This document shows positions 17,931-58,622 of a DNA stretch of 64,000 nucleotides, piece by piece (position 1 is the stretch's first letter; each line of letters opens with the position of its first letter). The translations under genes and the position numbers were made by a program. This DNA comes from Candidatus Saccharimonadota bacterium. Lineage in GTDB: Bacteria; Patescibacteriota; Saccharimonadia; Saccharimonadales; Saccharimonadaceae. The stretch is taken from positions 1-64,000 of the forward strand of contig JAFWMR010000013.1 of the NCBI GenBank assembly GCA_017513905.1, given 5' to 3'. The notes beneath the pieces were generated by a model that saw nothing but the letters and a program-made list of their open reading frames with translations, was not told the DNA's origin and searched no databases.

Positions 17931-20900
17931 TTAGTACCTTGGAGGTAGTTTCTTTATATAGACCATCTGTGGATTATGGGCATTGGCGCTTCTATTTTGG
18001 GCCCAGATAAATATGGATGGCTGGAAGTTAACTAGCTCTGCCGGCTCCTTGATACTTTCTACCGGATCTCCACCCGACGTGCGCTTGAGGTAGACCTTGC
18101 TTGCGATGATTAGTCCGTTCACAGTTAACTTATTAGTGCAAACATTGTTGTTGAGTGCGTCATAAGTATAGTTCTTGCATGTGTCTACAGTGCCACCATT
18201 ATTGCTCGGTCCAGAAGCAATGAGTATTGCATCAAGATTAGTGACTGATTGATCTATGTAAATATTTTTGGCTATGATTACAACTTGCGAGCTAGAATAG
18301 TTATTATAAATGTTTTCACTGATTGTAATGTCGTCGTCTGTGCGTACGACATATGTCTTACCGGCATCTACTTCTCTCCTGCATCCACCCGAGCCACATA
18401 CTACTGGTATGCTGTTAAGTTCGGCATTGGTTGGTAGGTAATCTTTGAATCGTTCTATATTTTCTAGTCTGGCATCAATGGATGCTCTACCAAGATATTT
18501 ATTTGTTGCATGGTTACAATATGCGTTCGATATGGTCAATGGATTAGGTACGGTAGTACATGTAGATGCCGTAACAGTAGCTCCACTAATAAGCGTAGCG
18601 CCAGAACCAATCCGTTTGATTGTGCCATTAGCTATAATTGCGTAGTCTGCCCATGAGCCAAATACTTTGCCACCCCTATCAGTGATGGTTGTTGTAATAT
18701 CGCCATTTGATAGAACCGATCCGCCCCAAACTTGGAAGTTTGGACGCTTTGATACGTTTCGGCAGGAAGATGTAGATACAAAGTAGCTACTAGATGCTGA
18801 GCTGTAGTTCCTAACTGCAATGGCTACGCAATACTTATCCCCGACAGGAAGATCTGGGACCGTAATGACGCCAGTTGTGTAGGAGAGCTGATAATCTGAT
18901 AGATTATATACATGTTTGAATGATGTACCTGGGTCTACGGACTCCCCGTCTTTTTTAGATAGCTTGTTTGGGTGCCCATCTGTCAATATATGACAGTCTT
19001 TGACGAATGAGTTTCTATTGATTACTCCGCAGACATCGTTATAAGCATTGCCAGAATATGTGAAGTTACCGTTAGTTGGTGCATGTGCTGGAGTGAGTGT
19101 TTGCAATTGGCCTATTGTGGCGTTTTTATCCACTACATATCCAACTACATAGACGTAACGAGCGTTGTCGGTATGGTTTGGATCAGTGATGTATTCGTGA
19201 TCATTGTTTTCCTTGCCGATATCTATCGTGTAGTTTATCGTATAAGAATTCTCGGCAAGAGCTATGCTATCAACATTGGAGTTAACTATATTATTGATGA
19301 TAAAGTTGTAAGGTCGGAAAATTGAATAAACTGTCGGTGAAGTTGTGTCGCGAGAATCTCGTTTGACTGGGGTCGTTAACTGTGGTTCGCTGTCGACTTT
19401 TTCTGTACGGTTATAGATTTGCGAACCGGAAGCATTAGACTTCCAGCTACCGGGATAGACTTCCTGACGCGTAATCTCTCGGTATCTAACACTCCAAGCG
19501 GCTCGAGAATTGTAAGTACTCATGGTGAAGTTTTTTGTATCGCCAGCCATTAAAGAGTGGTAGGATAGATCTTTTTCTCTCGCATTGGTCATTCTGAGTT
19601 TTTCACGGTCTAGGCCATTGAAACCAATGCGCGTACGACCATCGTTAGCCGTAGATGACCAGGAATCACCATGATCTTTGTCTCTCGCATTCAGCACGAG
19701 ATCACGTCCATCTATTTCTACTAACGAACCAGATTGCAACTTTAATGGGTTAATTAATTTAACCGTGTCACGTGTACCTGGTAAAGTTTCGGAGCCATAC
19801 ATCCTCAGGTCCGTACTCGGGGTATGAACACTGTAGTTGCTGTCGCCATAGATAGTTGGCTGGAAGAAGGCGCGACCAGTACTTGGGTTATTTGTGTAGT
19901 AAGCCGTATCTGCAGCACGCACATCGGTCTCATCAAAGTTATTAGTACGCCACGTGTTATTGTCATAGCGTGTAACGCTATGGTCGAAGAGGAATGATAG
20001 CTCGATGGTGATAGTCTCGTACTGTGTGCCTGATAGTAGACGAGCACCTGACGGGTATATAGTATTGCCTGGTATGCCGGAAACATCAATATAGTGAGTG
20101 CGCGTGGTAGAGTTGGCTTCGTGCCAATCTGGGTTTCTGATAGTTACACATGCCGGCGTAGAGTACGAAACTTGTCTAATACTATCCTCATCAAGTGAGT
20201 CAAGGTGCCAGTTACGATTGCTAGGATCAGTGGCAGATGTGTAAACAGCGGTTGTCGAATAAGCTACGCGCTGACAGTAGTATAGGTACTTACCCTTATT
20301 TGTGGCGTTGAACGTAAATTTAGCTTGAGTATTAATTGTGTTCGAGCTACTTACGCTGAGTGTAGACTTTACACCAGATACCGTACGAGAGGCATCAGTG
20401 TCTCGTGTCGTGGGTGTATATGATCTATAGACGCCAGCTACGCATCCTGCATCTTCACAATCTTGTATTTCCCAGTTATATACAGTTGGATTGACGTAAT
20501 AAACCGTAGATGCCGTAGATGATTTGTCTGTGTCGGTACGGTTCACAACGTGTGTAAAGGAAACTGTGTAAACATCATCGGCTGTGCCATTTGGTTTCTT
20601 CGGGAAATGATCGGTATAAGATCCGTCTGAGTTAGTATTAGTGCCACTGATACGTATTGCGTTATCTAGTACACCCATATGATTATTATCAGATCGATCA
20701 AGCCAAGTATGACTATCGATAGTGCCAGCTGAAGTACCAGTATAGTGAGCAGTATAGGTTTGTGCTGGATTAGTGAAGACATAGCAAACGTATTGTTTGC
20801 CCTCGAATGACCTGTCTTCTGTTACGCCATCTGGTTTGCCAATTACGACATTGCCAGATGAGTCACCACTTGCGTTGCTACCAATTAGTTTGACTTGGTT

Positions 20901-23612
20901 ATCGAAGGTGATGTAGAAGCATTGTGTCGTGGTGCCACCGATGTCTACCTGAACAGTCTTTGCTGGTTTATTGATAGTTTCCGTCTCGTTGTATTTTAGC
21001 GCAGGGGTAAATGTTTTTGCTGCATCGGCGGTTGGTTGAGAGACATCGCTAACAGCATATCTTGAAGTGACTCCTATTGCGGGTGAGTTATTACTGCGCT
21101 TAACGATGTATGTCGGGGTAATTGTGTATTGGCCATAAAGACCGTTACCCTCTCTACTATTACTTGTACTATTCGTGTTACTTGTACCAGATAGATAAGA
21201 GCCGTTCGCAACGGAAATTGATGCGGAAAATGTAGCTGTGTACTTGTATGGATTCAGGAAGTTGGCGCAAATGTAGTTCGTAGATTGAGAACGTGTGTCA
21301 AATGGCGTAGTCAGAACTGTGTCACCAATATAGCCAATTCGGCTATCGTACTTGAGGTATGAACATTTTGTGATAGTTGTGCCTTCTGCCACACCGGCAA
21401 AAGACAATGAGAATGCGACTGGATAATCATAGATTGGACTACGATTCCTAGAGAGATCAGTAGCCGTGCCGCCTTTACCTGTGCCAGAACCTGGAACAGA
21501 GGCTGGGAACTTGGTTGCGTCATAAGAGGTACTAGCAGCAGTATTTACGGCGAAACGTGATGTTGCATTAGTCGGGGTTGAGTTAGCATCGTTATTAACA
21601 CGTTTGAGGATATAATGAACTACTGGTGTATAGGTCTCATCGTAGCCGTTACCGCGGAAACCACTTGTAGCGTTTCCGGTCATACCCACCACCGATACAT
21701 CCATAGCGCTTGTTACGTCTGCGTATTTAGGATTATAGAAAGTTGTACAGTTATATACTTTATCTATAGAGTAACGATCATTGATTCTGTTTGTTCCGCC
21801 ATAGTAGTCGATTTCTTTCTCGTATGTCATATAGAAGCAGTAGTCTCCTTTAGTACCGACATTCTGCGTTATCGATTTGGTATTATTGGCAGTAGGGTTG
21901 TAGGTTTCGTTTTTTTGTAGAGAGCCAGAGAGAGTTGACGCTGAATCAGGTTGCGAGGAAGTAGAGGTAGTGTATTTGCTCGTAGCTGAAGTAGGGTTAT
22001 CGTTGGTTCGAGTTATAGTGTAAGTAGTCTTGATGCTATAGCTTGTAGCAGAACCGTTTCCCAGCAAGTTGCCATTACTTTGTGACTTAATGTTCGTGTC
22101 GTTATTTGCTGATGGATACGCTACGGTGCCTGAGAAGGTGGCTCGAGCGGGACGATAAACCGTGACGCACGATGGAGTGGTATAGGACAGACTACCGTCT
22201 GTCTGGACGTTTAATTGCATTGTTGGTGATGCATAGTAGGCTAACCGATCGCAGACAGTTTTAGATCCGCCAACTGCCACGTCATTGATGCTGACAGTAT
22301 GTGTATTGCTGGTAGTATTGTTAGGCGCAGTTCTTGTTAAATTAGCCGAAATCGATGCACCCGTTCCAGTTCGATTAGAGAATGTTCCGGACTGAGACGA
22401 CCCGGTTTGTGCCGTACCTTTAGCCGTGATTGATGATATATTTGTCTCGCTATCTGTACGTGTTAGGGTTTTAGTTGCAGTAGCGGAATAGTCGTCTATT
22501 CCGTAGTAGCCCAGATAGCTCGTACCCGATATGTGAGTTGTATTTGAGGGTGCACCGATTGAAAGGGCGCCAGTGATTGCTGCTGTATAGATTGGCGGAT
22601 CTTCACGGTACACTGTTGCGCAGGCTCCAGATGACCATGTGTAGCTAATGGTTGGAGCGTAAGTGTCTAGGCCTACCTTTCTTGGATATTTGACCCATGA
22701 ACAAACAGTGACCTCATCACCGTGGTTCAAGGTTCCACTGTACGTTGGTGTTAAGGTTGGATTACTCGTAGACGGCGTGCAGTCTGCGGAGCTATCTCCT
22801 TGAGCAGTACAATAGCTCCATTGTCCGCTCGTTACGGATGATCCCGACCACGCTTTGTTTGATGACAGAGTATGTGTAAAGTTGATTGTATACGATCCAT
22901 CACTACTTGTTGTTTTATACTTGCCATTTGACTGTTGGGCAGCATTCGTGACGCTACTAACGGCGTCGGTCGCGGAGGGATATGCAACTCTATACACATA
23001 AATAATCATCGGGAACTCATGACACTGGCTATCGCATGCAGATGCACCTAGACAAGAGTTATAATTAAATCTACGTTTATATATTGCGCCGTCTCGTGTC
23101 CATGTGCCTTTAGATAGATCGACCGTCAATGTGCCGTTTCCTGATGGCGAGCTAAATTGTCCAGCTGTTGATGATGTTGTAGCCGTCATATTGCTTGACA
23201 TTGACACGCCGCTAGCACTAGTGCATACATACGCGTTCGCGCTTGAGTTTGTTACTGTCGATATTGTTGTGCGTTTTAAATTTTTCTGAAATGTGTCGTT
23301 ATTGCTACTTATTTCTGGAATCGTCGTACTATTAATATATATCATACCGTAAGTTCCGCTTCCCGGTGCAGAGCTGTCGCATCTTTCATAGAATGTTTCA
23401 TAGTTTGCATTAACGATGTTTGTGCCTATGACACTATTCGCGCTACTCATACACTCAGCTACCGTCCAAGCATGCGCTGATTGCGTTGGAGTTATGAATA
23501 CATTGATCAGGGTAAATAGGACGGGAAGAAAAACAAAAATTATGAATTTATTCTGCGTTTTGATATTGCGCAATAAATGTTTAATAGCTTTGTTATCGTA
23601 TGCTAACACCAT
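17931..23612 (-). CDS. Giant secreted protein (1893 aa) with tandem Cys-pair domains
   Basis: The signal peptide spans about residues 20-48 (FIIFVFLPVLFTLINVF, cleavage after AHA). Residues 290-1160 hold six repeated units, each with a Cys pair: 304/331, 454/482, 592/622, 750/782, 898/943 and 1113/1155. Each unit has a strand like VCSWVKYP or KCSYLKYD and closes with a Cys-x-x-x-(Tyr/Phe/Arg)-x-Pro strand such as SCVTVYRP or ICANFLNP. IFRPYNFIINNI (about 1431) links to a region shared with the protein at 1-2.7 kb. The last 160 residues (QVVIIAKNIYIDQSVTNLDA, LTVNGLIIASKVYLKR, IKKLPPRY) form a separate beta domain of a type I associate with Patescibacteria surface proteins. No enzymatic motif is visible. 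Confidence 0.88.
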   Translation of the reverse strand: MVLAYDNKAIKHLLRNIKTQNKFIIFVFLPVLFTLINVFITPTQSAHAWTVAECMSSANSVIGTNIVNANYETFYERCDSSAPGSGTYGMIYINSTTIPEISSNNDTFQKNLKRTTISTVTNSSANAYVCTSASGVSMSSNMTATTSSTAGQFSSPSGNGTLTVDLSKGTWTRDGAIYKRRFNYNSCLGASACDSQCHEFPMIIYVYRVAYPSATDAVSSVTNAAQQSNGKYKTTSSDGSYTINFTHTLSSNKAWSGSSVTSGQWSYCTAQGDSSADCTPSTSNPTLTPTYSGTLNHGDEVTVCSWVKYPRKVGLDTYAPTISYTWSSGACATVYREDPPIYTAAITGALSIGAPSNTTHISGTSYLGYYGIDDYSATATKTLTRTDSETNISSITAKGTAQTGSSQSGTFSNRTGTGASISANLTRTAPNNTTSNTHTVSINDVAVGGSKTVCDRLAYYASPTMQLNVQTDGSLSYTTPSCVTVYRPARATFSGTVAYPSANNDTNIKSQSNGNLLGNGSATSYSIKTTYTITRTNDNPTSATSKYTTSTSSQPDSASTLSGSLQKNETYNPTANNTKSITQNVGTKGDYCFYMTYEKEIDYYGGTNRINDRYSIDKVYNCTTFYNPKYADVTSAMDVSVVGMTGNATSGFRGNGYDETYTPVVHYILKRVNNDANSTPTNATSRFAVNTAASTSYDATKFPASVPGSGTGKGGTATDLSRNRSPIYDYPVAFSLSFAGVAEGTTITKCSYLKYDSRIGYIGDTVLTTPFDTRSQSTNYICANFLNPYKYTATFSASISVANGSYLSGTSNTNSTSNSREGNGLYGQYTITPTYIVKRSNNSPAIGVTSRYAVSDVSQPTADAAKTFTPALKYNETETINKPAKTVQVDIGGTTTQCFYITFDNQVKLIGSNASGDSSGNVVIGKPDGVTEDRSFEGKQYVCYVFTNPAQTYTAHYTGTSAGTIDSHTWLDRSDNNHMGVLDNAIRISGTNTNSDGSYTDHFPKKPNGTADDVYTVSFTHVVNRTDTDKSSTASTVYYVNPTVYNWEIQDCEDAGCVAGVYRSYTPTTRDTDASRTVSGVKSTLSVSSSNTINTQAKFTFNATNKGKYLYYCQRVAYSTTAVYTSATDPSNRNWHLDSLDEDSIRQVSYSTPACVTIRNPDWHEANSTTRTHYIDVSGIPGNTIYPSGARLLSGTQYETITIELSFLFDHSVTRYDNNTWRTNNFDETDVRAADTAYYTNNPSTGRAFFQPTIYGDSNYSVHTPSTDLRMYGSETLPGTRDTVKLINPLKLQSGSLVEIDGRDLVLNARDKDHGDSWSSTANDGRTRIGFNGLDREKLRMTNAREKDLSYHSLMAGDTKNFTMSTYNSRAAWSVRYREITRQEVYPGSWKSNASGSQIYNRTEKVDSEPQLTTPVKRDSRDTTSPTVYSIFRPYNFIINNIVNSNVDSIALAENSYTINYTIDIGKENNDHEYITDPNHTDNARYVYVVGYVVDKNATIGQLQTLTPAHAPTNGNFTYSGNAYNDVCGVINRNSFVKDCHILTDGHPNKLSKKDGESVDPGTSFKHVYNLSDYQLSYTTGVITVPDLPVGDKYCVAIAVRNYSSASSSYFVSTSSCRNVSKRPNFQVWGGSVLSNGDITTTITDRGGKVFGSWADYAIIANGTIKRIGSGATLISGATVTASTCTTVPNPLTISNAYCNHATNKYLGRASIDARLENIERFKDYLPTNAELNSIPVVCGSGGCRREVDAGKTYVVRTDDDITISENIYNNYSSSQVVIIAKNIYIDQSVTNLDAILIASGPSNNGGTVDTCKNYTYDALNNNVCTNKLTVNGLIIASKVYLKRTSGGDPVESIKEPAELVNFQPSIFIWAQNRSANAHNPQMVYIKKLPPRY
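20140..22760 (-). repeat. Six diverged ~140-215 aa repeats inside the giant protein gene
   Basis: The region codes residues ~285-1160. First cysteines of the units are 138-215 residues apart (304, 454, 592, 750, 898, 1113). The closing strands PSCVTVYRP, YNCTTFYNP, YICANFLNP, YVCYVFTNP and PACVTIRNP are recognisably the same element. Identity between units is low, so this is old duplication. Confidence 0.6.
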
Positions 23613-47192: not shown

Positions 47193-48119
47193 TTATCTAT
47201 TCTTGCGACAATGACCCCATATAAGTGTTGTAAATATTACTACAGTAAAAATTACCGATATTAGAGTAGTTCCTCTTGTCTTAACTTTTATATCCATGGT
47301 GCGCGATATGCCAGAATCAGGTGCTTTCGGTAAGATAATTTTTTCTTGATCTTCAGAACTATCCACTATTTCTTCCTGTTCATTTTCCGGTTCTGTGACT
47401 TCTTCTTCAATTTCACTTCCTAACCCTTCGTCTTCTACGACGGCTACGATTGTTGTTTGAAGATAATCGACAGCGTCTGTTTCATCGTAAGATTTACTTA
47501 GGTGTGCATTGCCTTCGGAAACGTCTATATTTTCACTTACCGACCTAGTGCCCAAGTCTACAAAATGGCGGCCGATCGGTAAGTAACTTGCAATAACGAC
47601 TTCTGCCTCTTCCGTTGTTAATCTATTCCTGGAAATTAGACATACTGGCGAAGGTACGTCCGCGCCTTCATGACTTGAAAGATTTGCTTCAAATACACCA
47701 GAGTTGATGGCAATTGATGACGATGGAACAAAGTAGCCTGGATTAGTTTCGTTATCGTATTGTATCCAGATCACACAACTTGGAGAAGAGTAATGACCGC
47801 CATCGATTGTGAGCGAACCACCGTCGTATATTATAAAAGGCGAATAAGGGAATGCAAAGGAGAGATCAAGATTCTTTAATACGATATTATCCCAGACATA
47901 TATCCTGCTATAAATGTTCGTAGCGGATGTCTGAGATCTGCTATATGCGTTACATGTCCCTGTGCCATCGAGACTGTAGCCATGCACAAGCATACTTTGA
48001 CATAAATCTAATAAATTGTCTATAACGATTTGCCCTCCTGTGGCAATAACTGTATTACTAATTCCTCCCAGTACCAATACTATTGTCGCGAGAAAGCCAC
48101 CAAAAAGCCTTTTAAACAT
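47193..48119 (-). CDS. Surface protein with PKAPDSG sorting-type C-terminus
   Basis: 308 residues. A signal peptide covers about 1-27. The middle has short beta-helix-like turns (YDGGSLTIDGGHYSS, SIAINSGVFEANLSS). An acidic linker (EIEEEVTEPENEQEEIVD) leads to LPKAPDSG (263-270), a membrane segment (284-301) and the tail HCRKNR. This is laid out like an LPxTG signal with a changed motif; the cutinase-vWA protein ends in the related FPKAPNTG. Shine-Dalgarno AAAGGAG, -10 near 48155. Confidence 0.82.
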   Translation of the reverse strand: MFKRLFGGFLATIVLVLGGISNTVIATGGQIVIDNLLDLCQSMLVHGYSLDGTGTCNAYSRSQTSATNIYSRIYVWDNIVLKNLDLSFAFPYSPFIIYDGGSLTIDGGHYSSPSCVIWIQYDNETNPGYFVPSSSIAINSGVFEANLSSHEGADVPSPVCLISRNRLTTEEAEVVIASYLPIGRHFVDLGTRSVSENIDVSEGNAHLSKSYDETDAVDYLQTTIVAVVEDEGLGSEIEEEVTEPENEQEEIVDSSEDQEKIILPKAPDSGISRTMDIKVKTRGTTLISVIFTVVIFTTLIWGHCRKNR

Positions 48120-50693: not shown

Positions 50694-53573
50694 TTAGCCT
50701 ATGGTGGCCTTATTCCTAAGTGTATCGTAGATAATGTACTTTGGTTCAATTGCGATGATTTCTACAAATTCATCAGTTTCTCCATCAATATGAACTGTTT
50801 GATCAACTTTTTCGATGCCAAAAGCTAAGCGATCTTCTGGGTGATAATTCGCAAGGTAATTGAGCCCTTCTATGAGATCAAGAGTTGCTATCACCTCGTC
50901 TTTGCTCATGCCGGAATATCGAGCTAGAATTCCCTCATAAGACTGGTCAAGCGGATTTTCCTCGTAATATTGTGTTAGAGCAACCGTAGCTGGATCAACG
51001 TCAATTTTGCGTGTACCGGCCGAAATTATAAACCGTTGATCTTCTATGAAGCGCTGATAGTAACGGCCCTCATTTTGCCAATAGCATTTCATATCTTCAG
51101 TACAGCTGTTGTCGCAAGACGAATCGTAATCGCGAGCAACGCAGTTGTATCCACTAATCCAATCTTTGTCTTTTTGTGCTTCTATCATATCAGTTATAGC
51201 GCTGATTAAAGAGCCTATCAATGGGAGGTGATTCCACCAATTATTATTTCTGTCGTTACTCAATTGTTCAGCAATAGTTGGATCGGCGAAACCCCAGTCC
51301 GCGGTGCGCGGATCGCAGAACTGTATATGTTTACTCAAATTTGATTTGGCTTTTACCTTGTAGGCCGTTACACTCCTTCCATTATAGTCAATCGAGGCTG
51401 GAACCTTGCTCTCTAAGCCACCTTTTTCATATACTATGTCTATTACTTCGCTTGGTTTCAAATAAGAATCGTTGCCCGTGCTTCTCCAATAGTAGTTACT
51501 ATTCGCGGCAATCGAATCGTATTCCCCAAGTTTCTTCAACATAGCTATTGATGTATTTGTAGATGTGTCTGACACGAAATACGGATTACAATAGGCATCA
51601 CCGACAATACCAATCGATTCAAGAGTCGGGCATTCGCCAAACGAGCTGATAAGTTTGGTCTCCGCGATGGCGGAAGCTGATGGAAGAAGATTGTTTATCG
51701 AATCAGTCATGATAGAGCTAATATTCTTAAGCGTCGTGCCTACTCCGGACGTGTTTGCTACGGGAATTAGATTATAGACTATACTGCCAAGGAAAGTGTA
51801 CTGAGACGTAATGTCAAATGGAGAGCGTATGCTGCGTTGGTACTCTGCTTCTTCAGCAAGAACGACTTCTTGCTGACGGTGGAATGCAATGACTCGGTTC
51901 TTGGTTGCTGGCGAACCGCCACCTATTTGATGATTGGATGATAGGTATTTATTGGCACCCGATGCTAGTGCATTTCCGAGATCCTCGCCAAATACCGCTG
52001 TAGCCAAATCTTTTTCCAGCACATCTCCATAATTGTCCCAGAACCAGTCTATTAGACAGCCCATGAAGTAATCGATCGCGATGCTTGTGGCTATACCTAC
52101 GGCTAGTCGGATTGCAAATTCGACAATCTTAGCAATGCCAGCGGTAGCCACACCAACGATTGTCATTATGGTGCTAACAATAGAGACAGCACCTCTGATG
52201 TAGGTGCACGTCGTCATGGCCTCTAAAAAGTTTGTTGTACCATCTAGTGCTTCAGCGAGCATACTAGATATCGGATTGCTGCTTTTGCCAAGATTTGCAA
52301 ACGCGCCTTCTGCTGTAGCTGTTTTGACGCTTTCATCGTTTGGATCTATAGCGCCTCCACCAAACATAGCTCCCAGGCCTGCCGATTCGAAGGCGTTTTT
52401 CCCGGAATCATTGTCCTTAACGAGATTATTTGCGTATTCATGCATAGCCACGCCTTCGCTGTCGTCGCCGGCTTGAACCATTTGTACCGCTTCTGCAAAA
52501 CCGGTGATCAGATTCATTTGCTGTAAATTTGCGACCGATTTAATAATTGTCTGTATTCTGTTAGTTGCTTCTACGTATACACAGTATCCAGTCGCCAATT
52601 TCGAAACGGAATCCACTATCGAAGCGGCTTTAAGTGCGGCTTTACTGAAGCCACCACTCGAACCAGACGTCGTATCAGAGAGGTGTCCAGTACTATCCTG
52701 GAGGCCGTCGCCACTTTCGAGCGATGTATTTCTGCCTTTCATGATATTGCGTGCCGCAAATCTAGTTATTCTGTTCGTTCTTGTAACTCCCCCTAAGAAG
52801 AACCTGCTGCGCTGTAGTCCACGAACCGCTTCATTTAGCGACGTCAGTGTATCATACCAACCAGAGTTTCCGCCGCGCCAAGTCTTTGATGCTGTGGTAT
52901 AAGGATTCTTAAATTTGCTGTCTTCCATAGCCGCCTCAATTGTTACGAGACTCATGGTGGTAAAGGTTTTATTTTGATATTTTGTTCTGTAGCCTGATTG
53001 TATATCGCTTATGCTGGGACTTGATGGAACATCACCATGGACAACGTTCCAACTACCATTATTGTCGATTTCGTAAGCTAAGACTGTGCCACTACCGCTG
53101 CTGCCTCCGTAATCAAGTGGTAAAATTGCGTTTTGTTCAAGACTAGTTTTCTGATAATCTGTTAGTCCGAATGTATCTTGTGGGCTGGAGAGCTGATAGT
53201 TGAGAATATTATCTGCACGAAGAACCGAAGAAATACCATTAGTGTTGAATTCCTCAATAATCCTGTTAACGACGGCGAATGGCATAATGCTTTGAGCTAG
53301 GAGAATTAATCCTCCGAGCAGAGCTAACAATGTTACGATTGCGATAAGCGGGCCTTTTTTCTTTAGGCTGTCAATCTTTCCCTTCGCACTGTTTTTACCG
53401 TTTTTGGATTTACCTGTGACAGAATTGCGAAAATAGTTTTCTCCTCCAAAACCTTCTCCGACATCGCTATCCTCTGCAGAGCGAGCTTCGTTGACTGCTC
53501 CATCTTGTTTCTTGGAGTCTCTTTTCTTATCGGAAGCTGATCTTTCTGCTTTTTGCAATGCTTGTTCTGGCAT
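50694..53573 (-). CDS. Large membrane/surface protein, tandem paralogue 2 (959 aa)
   Basis: The cytoplasmic N-terminus is charged and disordered. A membrane helix lies at about 75-97 (PLIAIVTLLALLGGLILLA). A second hydrophobic region is at 459-507. Conserved with the neighbour are MPFAVVNRIIEEFN, KTWRGGNSGWYD (230-241), LPSASAIAETKLISSFGECP and ARYSGMSKDEVIA. The C-terminal third contains extra Cys (CDNSC, DMKC). The ATG follows TGCTATAAT by 6 nt; this promoter lies inside the upstream ORF. I know no function; a channel-like or secretion-apparatus component anchored in the membrane is possible. Confidence 0.85.
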   Translation of the reverse strand: MPEQALQKAERSASDKKRDSKKQDGAVNEARSAEDSDVGEGFGGENYFRNSVTGKSKNGKNSAKGKIDSLKKKGPLIAIVTLLALLGGLILLAQSIMPFAVVNRIIEEFNTNGISSVLRADNILNYQLSSPQDTFGLTDYQKTSLEQNAILPLDYGGSSGSGTVLAYEIDNNGSWNVVHGDVPSSPSISDIQSGYRTKYQNKTFTTMSLVTIEAAMEDSKFKNPYTTASKTWRGGNSGWYDTLTSLNEAVRGLQRSRFFLGGVTRTNRITRFAARNIMKGRNTSLESGDGLQDSTGHLSDTTSGSSGGFSKAALKAASIVDSVSKLATGYCVYVEATNRIQTIIKSVANLQQMNLITGFAEAVQMVQAGDDSEGVAMHEYANNLVKDNDSGKNAFESAGLGAMFGGGAIDPNDESVKTATAEGAFANLGKSSNPISSMLAEALDGTTNFLEAMTTCTYIRGAVSIVSTIMTIVGVATAGIAKIVEFAIRLAVGIATSIAIDYFMGCLIDWFWDNYGDVLEKDLATAVFGEDLGNALASGANKYLSSNHQIGGGSPATKNRVIAFHRQQEVVLAEEAEYQRSIRSPFDITSQYTFLGSIVYNLIPVANTSGVGTTLKNISSIMTDSINNLLPSASAIAETKLISSFGECPTLESIGIVGDAYCNPYFVSDTSTNTSIAMLKKLGEYDSIAANSNYYWRSTGNDSYLKPSEVIDIVYEKGGLESKVPASIDYNGRSVTAYKVKAKSNLSKHIQFCDPRTADWGFADPTIAEQLSNDRNNNWWNHLPLIGSLISAITDMIEAQKDKDWISGYNCVARDYDSSCDNSCTEDMKCYWQNEGRYYQRFIEDQRFIISAGTRKIDVDPATVALTQYYEENPLDQSYEGILARYSGMSKDEVIATLDLIEGLNYLANYHPEDRLAFGIEKVDQTVHIDGETDEFVEIIAIEPKYIIYDTLRNKATIG
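53363..53573 (-). other. 211-nt out-of-frame overlap of the two paralogue genes
   Basis: After FSKNDPAYAIIDS the upstream ORF runs on in another frame through the start of the 959-aa gene and ends at 53363. The tail (Cys/Lys/Arg-rich) has no match in the paralogue. One base change of frame near 53585 would end the upstream gene at a TGA just before the downstream ATG. Confidence 0.6.
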
Positions 53574-56128
53574 GAGTCAATTATAGCATAAGCTGGATCA
53601 TTTTTGGAGAATAATTTTCGTGTACTTGGTTCGTAATTTGCGATGTAGGTCAGTACGTCAATAGTATCTTCTACGGCAATTACTTGCTCTTTCGTCATGC
53701 CTGAATATCGAGCAATTATACCCTCGCGTGTGTTGTCGAGCGGATTCTCTTCATAATAATCTTCGAGCATGGCTGTGACTGATGATTTTTGTGTAACGCC
53801 AGCAACTTCAAGCAGGCGCTGGTCTGAAATATAGCGCTGATAGTACTTTACTTCGTCCCAAAGTGGATTATTAGCCGAATTTACACCCGCGGCCCCAGAA
53901 ATCCATGGCATGTTTTCGGCCTCGCCGATTGCGGAGATGATTTGAGCAACATCGCCAACAAGTGGGAGGTTCGCTATGATCGTTGATGGCTGCTGAACTA
54001 AAATATTAGCTGCCGTAGCATCTGCAATACCTAGCGTAGCAATGCGCTGATCAAGAATCGCTGCTGTTTTACCGAGGTTCGAACTAGGATTGATGATCTT
54101 TTGTCCGTTTGAGTCTTCGCCCTTAAAAGCATTCGGGTCTATCTCTTGAATCTTAGCTTCAATTTCGGCAGGCGTTAGTTCGAGCGTCGAAAGGTCATCA
54201 ACGTAATATGGGTTTCCGGTCGGGTCACAAACAGCGCCGACGCTATTCATAATTGGACATTCGCCGAAACTTGTGACTAGATTGGTTTCTGCAATAGCTG
54301 ACGCGCTCGGAAGAAGGCTCATTACGGAGCTGGTAAATATATCGCCAAGGTTCTTAAATGCAGTACCGAGCCCAGAACTAGTAGCGAGTGGCATAAGGCT
54401 GTAGGCGATGCTACCAAAGAATGTATTTCTAGATGTAAGATCAAATGGACTTCTGTTTTTGCGATCTAGCTCTGCTTCTTCAGCAAGAACAACAGCTTTC
54501 GCGCGATTATAGCTGAGGACTGCGTCTTTTGATCCAGCTGACCCGCCGCCAGTTTGGTAGTTGCCTCCTAGGTATTTTCCAGCACCGCTATACATAGCGT
54601 TAAAGTAATCCTCGCCAACCCATTCAGTAGCAACGTTTTTCGCGACATTCTTGAACACTTGGCTGACGATTTTTGGGATAATAAAGCTGGTTATTGCTCC
54701 TATTGTTGCGCCAAGCGCAATACGCCCAACGAGCTTAGCTACTATATGAATTGCCTTAACGGCTTGACCAAGAACTGGAATGAAATTTAAAACGGTGGTT
54801 GCGAAGTTTACAGCAGCTACGCCCATCTTAACATAAGAACACGCCTCGAAGGCTTGGGCCGTAAAGTTTATATTGCCAGTTAGCGTGCCCAGACTCGACA
54901 TGAGATTCTCAAAACTAACGGTCTTAATGCTTTCGTCATTAGTGTCTACAGTGGTACCAGAAAAAAGCGCTTGAGATGTTGCTGCTTGCATAGGTGTTTT
55001 TCCGGTCTCTGGGTCTGGCGTGGTAAGGATCTTGTTGTATTTGTTCATAGGTGTACCGTCGTTCTGTCCGATCTGAGTACGCTGAACGGCTTCAAGATAT
55101 CCAGTTGCTAGATTTAGATACTGGATCGATTGTTGCGCTGACATATATGTTTGGATGGCCGTCATTATTTCCACACCAGCACATCCAACCGTAGCTGCGA
55201 GTTTTGCAACACTGGTTATTTTAGAATTCAGTGCGTTACGGACACCTTCCATTGTGGTTTGGCCAGACAGAGACGTAGAATCTATAGTGCCAGAATTTGT
55301 CGTAGTGACATCGTTGCCGTCGGAATCTCTATCTACGTAAGAACCGTAATCCGAAATACCGCCATCGCCTGAGGTGCTATTGCCAGCCGCCATTCTGCGC
55401 CATGCTTCGTCTGCTCCAGAAAGTGCGGCCGTAGTCCATGAGTTGAAGCGCGTTCTTCTTATGGCAAGACGGGCTTCGGTTAGATCCTCCATTGAATCAT
55501 ACCATCCGGAGTTACCTCCTCGCCATGTCTTAGATGCTGCTGCGTATTTATCTTTAAAATTCGATGCTTTAAGTGCATCTTCAACTGATATCGGTGCAGA
55601 TGACAAAGAAAAATCAGGATCATTAAATGCGCTAATAATTTTGGTATTAAGTCCACTAGAATCCACGACAGATTTTGGAACAACCGCACGCCAGTTTCCG
55701 GGTGACTCCTCATAAACTAGGGCAGTGATTGCAGTGCCTTCGGCCGTGATGTCTACCGGATATATATTCGTTTCTTTGAGCGCCGAACGTTGATTCTCTG
55801 ATAGACCGAAGTAAGAGCCCGTGCTCGATAGTTGAATGTCGAGAATGCTGTCAGAGCGAAAAACTGATGAAATGCCAGCACCGTTAAATTCTTCTATGAA
55901 GCGATTAACTAGCGCAAATGGCATGAATGATTGCGAGACAAAAATCATCGTTATCCCAGCGATCAGAACTCCGATAATCACAAGAAGCGGGGCATGTTTT
56001 TTGCTAAAAGACCAGAAGTGTTTTTTGCCGTTTCCTGTACTATTATCGTAACGCACAGAATCAGCGCGTCCAGAAACATTCGAGACGAACGTCTCACGAG
56101 AACGTGCTTCGGTAATATCATCTGACAT
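53363..56128 (-). CDS. Large membrane/surface protein, tandem paralogue 1 (921 aa as read)
   Basis: Same design as the 959-aa neighbour: a cytoplasmic start, a membrane helix at about 46-70 (LLVIIGVLIAGITMIFVSQS), MPFALVNRFIEEFNGAGISSVF, KTWRGGNSGWYDS, a central hydrophobic region (MGVAAVNFATTVLNFIPVLG), SAIAETNLVTSFGECP and ENPLDNTREGIIARYSGMTK. The last ~70 residues as read come from the out-of-frame overlap and may not be the native end. TGTTATAAT ends 8 nt before the ATG. It follows the cutinase-vWA gene by 63 nt. Confidence 0.82.
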   Translation of the reverse strand: MSDDITEARSRETFVSNVSGRADSVRYDNSTGNGKKHFWSFSKKHAPLLVIIGVLIAGITMIFVSQSFMPFALVNRFIEEFNGAGISSVFRSDSILDIQLSSTGSYFGLSENQRSALKETNIYPVDITAEGTAITALVYEESPGNWRAVVPKSVVDSSGLNTKIISAFNDPDFSLSSAPISVEDALKASNFKDKYAAASKTWRGGNSGWYDSMEDLTEARLAIRRTRFNSWTTAALSGADEAWRRMAAGNSTSGDGGISDYGSYVDRDSDGNDVTTTNSGTIDSTSLSGQTTMEGVRNALNSKITSVAKLAATVGCAGVEIMTAIQTYMSAQQSIQYLNLATGYLEAVQRTQIGQNDGTPMNKYNKILTTPDPETGKTPMQAATSQALFSGTTVDTNDESIKTVSFENLMSSLGTLTGNINFTAQAFEACSYVKMGVAAVNFATTVLNFIPVLGQAVKAIHIVAKLVGRIALGATIGAITSFIIPKIVSQVFKNVAKNVATEWVGEDYFNAMYSGAGKYLGGNYQTGGGSAGSKDAVLSYNRAKAVVLAEEAELDRKNRSPFDLTSRNTFFGSIAYSLMPLATSSGLGTAFKNLGDIFTSSVMSLLPSASAIAETNLVTSFGECPIMNSVGAVCDPTGNPYYVDDLSTLELTPAEIEAKIQEIDPNAFKGEDSNGQKIINPSSNLGKTAAILDQRIATLGIADATAANILVQQPSTIIANLPLVGDVAQIISAIGEAENMPWISGAAGVNSANNPLWDEVKYYQRYISDQRLLEVAGVTQKSSVTAMLEDYYEENPLDNTREGIIARYSGMTKEQVIAVEDTIDVLTYIANYEPSTRKLFSKNDPAYAIIDSCQNKHCKKQKDQLPIRKETPRNKMEQSTKLALQRIAMSEKVLEEKTIFAILSQVNPKTVKTVRRERLTA
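53580..53585 (-). promoter_or_regulatory. -10 box of the 959-aa gene (leaderless type)
   Basis: TGCTATAAT, six bases, then the ATG at 53573. It lies within the upstream paralogue ORF. Confidence 0.65.
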
Positions 56129-56191: not shown

Positions 56192-58006
56192 CTATTCGTG
56201 AAATGATCCTGTGTTCGGTGCTTTGGGGAACATAGAGAACACATTATTTTCTGCGCCACTAGCATTTGAAGTTAAGTTATTGTTCGTTATACAGCCCGCT
56301 TCGCCTCTGTATCCATTTGATGACACTGGTGATACGCATATTTTTATTTCGCTTAGTAAGTCTAAATCTGTTATTTCTACAGCACGCTCCGTTGTGCACC
56401 CTAACGGCATATCGTTAATAGTAAGAATACTAATACTCGCATCTGTGTCAAATGCAATTTTTATGGAAGATTCCGAGACTATTTCGAGCGTAAGATTATT
56501 AATGCTGGAAATAGTCGGCTCGGCAAGATCTGTAGATGTGTATATTTCACCCGGATCACGTGAAAGAATTTCTGTTTCGATATCCTCGAGGGCAGAATCG
56601 ATATTTGAGACGTATACTCCCCCGTCGGTGAGTGTCGCAAGTTCTTCATATGAGTCAACATACCCTTTATTAGTTAAAATATAGATATTGACCGGGTCAA
56701 TGCTTTTGCTAAGCGCTACAACTTCATCAAGTGTAATTCCATCTCTATCTGGATTATGATAATCTGCGTCGGTTAAAACGACAAGAGATTTGTTCGCGCC
56801 TATATCCCAATTAAGTCTACGCATAAGTTTGTAAGAAGCGGACAGAAGAGATTCTGGTGTATCGCCACCACCGGACACAGTTAAGTCAGAAATATTCGAT
56901 TCGATATTTTCTGCGTTGCAGGTTTCAAAATTACACAGTTCAATTGTATCCATTTCCTCTAGATCACCATATGCATAAAGTGCGACTTTTCCGCCCTTAT
57001 CCATGGTACGTCTTGCAACTGCTATAGCCTCAGATTTAAAGTGTGATAGAAGTGGGCCCATTGATCCGGTAACATCAAACAAGATTGCAACATTTTGAGC
57101 TGGCCGAACATATGTAGATGGTTCAACCATGTTGTAAACGTCCTGAATAGCACGCTTATATGTACCCTGTTCTGCATATGTCGCATGGCCATAGACAATA
57201 TTATCTAAATCAATTGCGGAACTACATATAACGTCATGAAATTGACAATAAGCTTTGAGCTTACCGCTATGCGATGCTGTTCTTTGATATGGAACGTATC
57301 CTCCCAATATACCTTCGTGTGCATAGCAATCTGGAACGTAAGCACGGTAATCGGAATATCCTTCGCCATGGCAAGCTTGTGTGCTCATTGTTAATAAGTT
57401 TAGTTTTCCTTCTGGAAGATAAAGCTTTGGGTCGCCAAATGTAAGCGCCGCGAAGAAGTCGGTTGGGCCGCTTTGTTGAAGTGCTCGAGATATTACTTGT
57501 GCACCTTGCGAATAACCAGCATAAACTATTTTAGTGTTTGGGCATGCAGCCTGCAAAGCAAATGTATAATATAACGCTTCGATGGCTCCGTTTTCAACAG
57601 AATCTCCGTATTCGTTGAACTCTCCTCCGGAGACTAGGGCGCCTATTGACGTCACAAATCGATCTACTGTTGAAATACCAATTCCTGGTGCTGGGTATGA
57701 AAACCCATTCCATCCATCTGGGCGAGAACCCAATTCATAAAAACTATACGAGTATGCGGAATTTCCGAATACTTCGTCAACTGCCTGCTTGAATGGAGCG
57801 AAATCCCTCTCCGATCCAACTTCTGCTCCTGAGCCGCGCGCGAAAATAAACTTAAAATCGGTGCACGAAAGATATTCTGAGCCTCCATAGTAGTCACTAT
57901 AGCTCGCCACTCGGTACGAAGCGGATAAGCTGAGTGCAGCCACTAGTAGTGCGCAAATTAGGTATTTGGGTCTTATTCTTTGTGAAAAATTTCGATGCAA
58001 CTTCAT
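56192..58006 (-). CDS. Secreted cutinase fused to a von Willebrand A domain
   Basis: 604 residues. Signal peptide about 1-30. A cutinase domain (about 46-290) starts CTDFKFIFARGSGAEVGSERDF and has GYSQG (164-168, nucleophile S166), CQFHDVIC with catalytic D258, and YGHATY with H274; C48 and C155 fit the first family disulfide. A vWA domain (about 303-470) has the metal site FDVTGSMG (D311, S315), GGGDTPES and VVLTDADYH. The end is FPKAPNTG then SFHE and stop: the sorting-type motif is present, but the membrane segment that should follow is missing. Cutinases hydrolyse ester lipids; related enzymes in mycolic-acid bacteria act on envelope lipids. Confidence 0.9.
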   Translation of the reverse strand: MKLHRNFSQRIRPKYLICALLVAALSLSASYRVASYSDYYGGSEYLSCTDFKFIFARGSGAEVGSERDFAPFKQAVDEVFGNSAYSYSFYELGSRPDGWNGFSYPAPGIGISTVDRFVTSIGALVSGGEFNEYGDSVENGAIEALYYTFALQAACPNTKIVYAGYSQGAQVISRALQQSGPTDFFAALTFGDPKLYLPEGKLNLLTMSTQACHGEGYSDYRAYVPDCYAHEGILGGYVPYQRTASHSGKLKAYCQFHDVICSSAIDLDNIVYGHATYAEQGTYKRAIQDVYNMVEPSTYVRPAQNVAILFDVTGSMGPLLSHFKSEAIAVARRTMDKGGKVALYAYGDLEEMDTIELCNFETCNAENIESNISDLTVSGGGDTPESLLSASYKLMRRLNWDIGANKSLVVLTDADYHNPDRDGITLDEVVALSKSIDPVNIYILTNKGYVDSYEELATLTDGGVYVSNIDSALEDIETEILSRDPGEIYTSTDLAEPTISSINNLTLEIVSESSIKIAFDTDASISILTINDMPLGCTTERAVEITDLDLLSEIKICVSPVSSNGYRGEAGCITNNNLTSNASGAENNVFSMFPKAPNTGSFHE

Positions 58007-58088: not shown

Positions 58089-58622
58089 ATGAAATGGGAC
58101 GAATACTTTATGGGTATTGCGGAGGAAGTAGCAAAAAAATCCAAAGACCCTTCAAGCAAAAATGGTTGCGTAATAGTTGATGAAAGGCACCGTCCGGTCT
58201 CTTTTGGTTACAATGGCACCATTCAAGGTGCTGACGAATCAAAAATGACGCTCTCTGAGCGACCGATGAAATATTACTTCTCTATTCATTCAGAGATGAA
58301 TGCAGTTCTTTTTTCTGGTCGAGACTTAACTGGATATACCCTATACAATACTATTGCAACTTGTGAAAACTGTCTGAAGTATTGCCTTCAAGCTGGAATT
58401 AAAAGATTTGTTTATAAAGAGCTCAGAGTGCATTCCCATAAAACAGATAGGGCGCGTTCGATGACAAATATTGACACCGATGAAGCCGTAATTAGACTAC
58501 TAGCTTCGTGCCCTGATGTAGAAACGCTGAATATAACAAACGGTCGAACTTATACCGAAGATATTTTGGCCCAGTATGATCCCGGTACGCCTGAACGCGA
58601 GCGATTATTAAAGTGGCTATGA
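58089..58622 (+). CDS. Deoxycytidylate deaminase-like protein
   Basis: 177 residues from the ATG at 58089; an upstream in-frame start at 57966 would place the promoter inside the gene. Zinc ligands are H67 in HSEMNAV (HxE, with E69 as proton shuttle) and C92/C95 in TCENCLKYC. The N-terminal KWDEYFMGIAEEVAKKSKDPSSKNGCVIV is typical of dCMP/ComEB deaminases. It would supply dUMP, though no thymidylate synthase is in the window. Divergent from the cutinase gene and convergent with ung, ending 1 nt from it. Confidence 0.9.
   Translation: MKWDEYFMGIAEEVAKKSKDPSSKNGCVIVDERHRPVSFGYNGTIQGADESKMTLSERPMKYYFSIHSEMNAVLFSGRDLTGYTLYNTIATCENCLKYCLQAGIKRFVYKELRVHSHKTDRARSMTNIDTDEAVIRLLASCPDVETLNITNGRTYTEDILAQYDPGTPERERLLKWL

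Follow-up and report, generated by a model that had tools for sequence, protein, structure and literature searches.

A conserved cutinase-vWA fusion in Candidatus Nanosyncoccus: a probable secreted esterase of Saccharibacteria with relatives in free-living Actinobacteria

What might a bacterial epibiont do with a protein in which a cutinase is joined to a vWA domain? The question is raised by a gene of a Candidatus Saccharimonadota bacterium (GCA_017513905.1, contig JAFWMR010000013.1), which lies on the reverse strand at 56192..58006 of the 64,000-nucleotide stretch of DNA that was analysed (positions 1–64,000 of the contig; hereafter the window) and encodes 604 amino acids from an ATG start with no internal stop. 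All features of the protein given below lie on the same strand. A search of the source genome found this fusion as its one cutinase-family gene. An earlier note on this DNA was aware of no characterisation of the fusion, which agrees with our literature search: no describing paper was found, none of the papers retrieved treats a cutinase of this kind in Saccharibacteria or Patescibacteria, and none of the titles and abstracts deals with a cutinase joined to a vWA domain. As a single-copy, conserved and easily expressed soluble protein, it is a candidate for the scarcely known secreted proteins between Saccharibacteria and their hosts.

The cutinase half of the protein (residues 48–299; 57110..57865) is recognized by the Pfam family Cutinase (PF01083) at 66.7 bits against a cut-off of 25.9 (E 3e-18) and carries the triad motifs in the expected order, namely S166 in GYSQG (codon 57509..57511), D258 in HDVIC (57233..57235) and H274 in GHATY (57185..57187). 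The earlier note had named these three residues as a complete cutinase triad, and each of the predicted catalytic positions proved to be invariant in all 84 distinct complete fusion proteins; the cystines are also conserved. Structure prediction, proposed in that note as a check, yielded an AlphaFold2 model (built from 30 relatives; mean pLDDT 81.5) that, on structure comparison, backs both a cutinase fold and a vWA fold. With VIA-align, residues 48–299 match the cutinase-like protein 2czq (Z 20.4, 2.5 A over 189 residues) and the acetylxylan esterase 1bs9 (Z 19.5); cutinases and acetylxylan esterases occur alike among the fold matches, 1bs9 having the highest identity (25%). The fusion thus shares with CE5 proteins (PF01083; Cryptococcus 2czq, Penicillium 1bs9) the fold, the GYSQG nucleophile, the D-x-x-C and H motifs and the cystines, whereas it differs from them in its added vWA and beta modules, its long insertions and its carrier, a bacterial epibiont. 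Motifs and model together suggest that the fusion is a real, conserved serine esterase of the cutinase/CE5 superfamily, and that it is probably active. Secretion appears likely from the hydrophobic helix at residues 13–30 of the model, within a putative signal peptide region (residues 1–36; 57899..58006), and from the Ala-x-Ala-type sites in relatives.

The vWA half (residues 300–487; 56546..57109) scores 32.3 bits with the Pfam family VWA_4 (PF25106; cut-off 27, E 9e-8), and residues 300–485 of the model align with the I-like domain of integrin beta3 (3ze2_D; Z 22.4, 2.0 A over 182 residues by VIA-align) and also with the I domain of integrin alphaM, the integrin matches having Z values of about 19–22. 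The MIDAS-type set is complete in the window protein (D311-x-T313-x-S315, with the first segment D311-V-T-G-S315 at 57062..57076, then D382/T383 and D413). The intact metal site claimed in the earlier note therefore stands for this protein, but not for the family: of the 84 fusion proteins, 70 have a full MIDAS-like set and 14 a degenerate one, a loss in about a sixth. Fold and MIDAS-type residues are held in common with other vWA and integrin I-like domains (VWA_4; beta3, alphaM), while the fusion differs from them in the attachment to a hydrolase, the third ligand in a GGGDxPE loop and the loss of the metal site in some members. Because the triad is invariant and the metal site is not, the esterase is taken to be the core function, and metal-dependent binding would be common rather than universal and under weaker constraint. 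This comparison also bears on a reading in which the protein is an adhesin or signalling protein, its esterase fold serving another role such as lectin-like binding, with catalysis incidental. The clear integrin-like fold predicted for the vWA domain would suit such a role; however, the triad is conserved above the metal site, and homologues that have no vWA domain keep the cutinase, so that we find this reading scarcely credible.

The grafting of a vWA module with a metal site onto a surface protein for adhesion has a precedent in PilB of Streptococcus sanguinis (PMC8179133), which has the graft in common with the fusion but is a pilin, not an enzyme. In two actinobacterial proteins a vWA domain of this kind is joined to a possible SGNH-type hydrolase (L184) and a possible subtilase (L185), the domain names being assigned by eye. 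This suggests a vWA domain that travels as a partner of secreted hydrolases.

Beyond the vWA domain, a beta-sandwich-like module (residues 503–574; 56285..56500), modelled with seven strands at a pLDDT of about 84–93, is followed by a feature that is absent from the earlier note, a sortase-like tail, PKAPNTG-SFHE (residues 594–604; 56195..56227). The tail is disordered in the model, the motif PKAPNTG occupies residues 594–600 and the protein ends four residues later; the candidate sortase peptide is FPKAPNTGSFHE. P597 is invariant in a 30-row alignment, and a P-x-[TSCA]-G motif plus a few residues forms the C-terminus in about 72 of the 84 fusion proteins (the automatic count was 71, to which L007 was added, its flagged hydrophobic stretch preceding the motif). 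KAPNTG followed by RR, KR or KK is the commonest form. In the window protein the motif is followed by neither a hydrophobic segment nor a basic tail, those about 72 relatives likewise have no hydrophobic stretch there, and because this segment is missing the fusion is not classed as a canonical sortase substrate. The source genome itself has two sortases, sortase being present in 40 of 40 genomes of the genus, and PKxPxSG/PKxPxTG occurs at two other places in it, both with a membrane segment after the motif: one protein on contig 14 and the window protein at 47193–48119(-). The latter, 308 residues long and secreted-looking, ends in LPKAPDSG, a membrane segment and a basic tail, and is a probable sortase substrate. 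In sister-genus homologues of the cutinase (L220, L213, L207), LPSTG, APNTG or VPKTG is likewise followed by a membrane segment. The simplest reading of these C-termini is that the tail of the fusion may derive from a sorting signal whose motif was retained after the anchor disappeared. The retention of an anchorless sortase-like tail by most of the family makes the display of such proteins a clear question.

The distribution of the gene indicates how long it has been kept. Among 36 sampled genomes of the genus Candidatus Nanosyncoccus, a sampling dominated by assembled genomes, 34 have a cutinase-family gene in one copy per genome, and in a sample of the order it was found in 82 of 87 further members of the genus, about 5–6% of the genus lacking it. 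Such retention as a single copy points to long-term selection. Chance or contamination is rejected on account of the single copy, the presence across the genus and the synteny: in most members the gene is divergent from a dCMP deaminase gene, often with a uracil-DNA glycosylase nearby. In the window the dCMP deaminase-like neighbour lies at 58089..58622(+), and its function is probably unrelated to that of the fusion. Downstream neighbours vary (TypA, TatD, NrdD, a cation ATPase, large membrane proteins), and since they differ and are housekeeping genes, no operon partner is inferred. No relative of the fusion was found in the viral contigs searched, and a viral origin was rejected. The whole order sample (Saccharimonadales) gave a cutinase-family match in 122 of 393 genomes and in 19 of 156 genera. 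One relative (L101) is Candidatus Nanosyncoccus alces, which identifies the genus, and most others are ruminant-gut assemblies.

Sister genera have the same cutinase without the vWA domain; its place is taken by PKD-like and Ig-like modules together with a membrane anchor. The proteins L209, L210 and L213 from these genera and L150 from Rothia aeria belong to the same cutinase subfamily and lack the vWA domain, the saccharibacterial ones ending in a C-terminal membrane anchor.

Some other proteins of the window were noted as well. Two neighbours of 921 and 959 residues (50694–56128(-)) are related to each other, contain membrane segments and could be assigned to no Pfam or NCBIfam family with clarity; Nanosyncoccus genomes hold relatives of them at several sites. 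At 17931–23612(-), a secreted-looking, repetitive surface protein of 1893 residues has no assigned family.

The fusion extends beyond Saccharibacteria to free-living Actinobacteria. Among Micrococcaceae it is carried by L195 (816 residues, intact) and Arthrobacter sp. AFG7.2 (L144), and outside them by Nocardioides halotolerans (L149), with a more distant case in Leifsonia (L158). These cutinase-vWA(-PKD-Ig) proteins of Micrococcaceae and Nocardioides keep the domain order of the saccharibacterial fusion, with core identities of up to about 40%. Among L195, L144 and L149, the differences from the saccharibacterial fusion are an extra PKD-type module and, at the end of L149, a membrane anchor, L195 having neither; the actinobacterial forms are also rare and often frame-broken. 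In 396 Actinomycetota genomes the seed alone carries the fusion, while 245 Micrococcaceae genomes yielded the seed, one intact copy and one copy with its two domains in different frames. A cutinase or fusion split between frames occurs in Arthrobacter L144, Rothia aeria L150, L196 and L200, a sign of decay or of errors in sequencing. The Micrococcaceae proteins are nested in the saccharibacterial clade of the cutinase tree (95/97); saccharibacterial monophyly was not rejected (AU p 0.296) and the vWA tree is weak. Gene exchange between Saccharibacteria and Actinobacteria is likely on this phylogenetic evidence, and the cross-phylum distribution would then be a rare trace of exchange between epibiont lineages and lineages of the host phylum.

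Saccharibacteria as a group parasitise Actinobacteria, which favours the idea, raised in the earlier note, that the enzyme attacks the host envelope. On this reading it would cleave mycolate or other ester lipids of an actinobacterial host and thereby help the epibiont to attach to that host, feed on it or lyse it. Mycobacterial cutinases are sequence relatives of the fusion, and a saccharibacterial parasite of Gordonia depends on host mycolates, as far as a citing paper relates (Rose et al., 2025, cited in PMC12592800); both speak for this idea. However, the tree groups the family with Micrococcaceae rather than with the mycobacterial cutinases, and the same fusion occurs in free-living Actinobacteria. 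To our knowledge, the Micrococcaceae bearers are without mycolic acids, and these gut lineages have no known host. An attack on host mycolates is thus not specifically supported, and we regard host-envelope attack as doubtful.

The carriers in the genus come largely from ruminant rumen and small intestine, and the best-identity fold match is a CE5 acetylxylan esterase, which would suit an esterase acting on the acetyl or cutin esters of the feed of ruminants, to the nutritional benefit of the epibiont or its neighbours. However, homologues are also found in a saccharibacterium from groundwater (L170) and in a saccharibacterial assembly that is not labelled as gut (L154), the vWA domain is no known carbohydrate-binding module, and no xylan-degrading partner gene lies nearby. 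We consider a role on plant polymers quite unlikely.

We favour, with reasonable but far from full confidence, a secreted serine esterase that is targeted by its vWA domain and releases acyl or acetyl groups at the surface of a cell, perhaps as a means of scavenging fatty acids. The protein would be exported by the Sec route, and its cutinase domain would hydrolyse acyl or acetyl esters at the surface by a Ser-His-Asp mechanism, while the vWA domain, through its Mg/Mn site where intact, may hold the enzyme to a surface protein or polymer. The tail could be a substrate of the cell's own sortases or a remnant of an anchor, leaving the protein released or transiently tethered. The most likely benefit would be the capture of nutrients (fatty acids) from a bacterial host or the surroundings, with loosening of the envelope as a possible by-effect. 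Ketoacyl synthase (PF00109) was found in none of 25 genomes of the genus, with all 14 controls positive, so the genus appears unable to make fatty acids and would have to obtain them from outside. Such a dependence agrees with the general picture of Saccharibacteria. However, the gene's absence from a small part of the genus indicates that these bacteria can do without it. It is also missing from most genera of the order, although they presumably need fatty acids too, and it has no lipid-uptake partner among its housekeeping neighbours. A more specific version, in which this esterase acts on the host surface as a soluble enzyme, is docked by its vWA domain and is linked covalently to a cell wall through its anchorless motif by a sortase, possibly that of the host, and in which epibiont and host phyla came to share the gene by horizontal transfer, seems very unlikely.

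A separate observation concerns the cutinase genes of a genus of the same family (g32; L202–L208, for example L206), which have one to three in-frame TGA codons in at least seven species. Nearly all of these codons stand at positions of Trp in relatives, one context (E-TGA-R-Q-F) is common to six, and the frames are otherwise intact, with no TAA or TAG. Within the tests made, genome-wide recoding of TGA in this genus was rejected: every TGA-bearing genome tested has prfB, and about 250 kb of one genome, with 80 conserved TGG-Trp sites, contained no TGA convincingly at a conserved Trp outside the cutinase. To judge from these sequences, the TGA codons look gene-specific, perhaps being read through.
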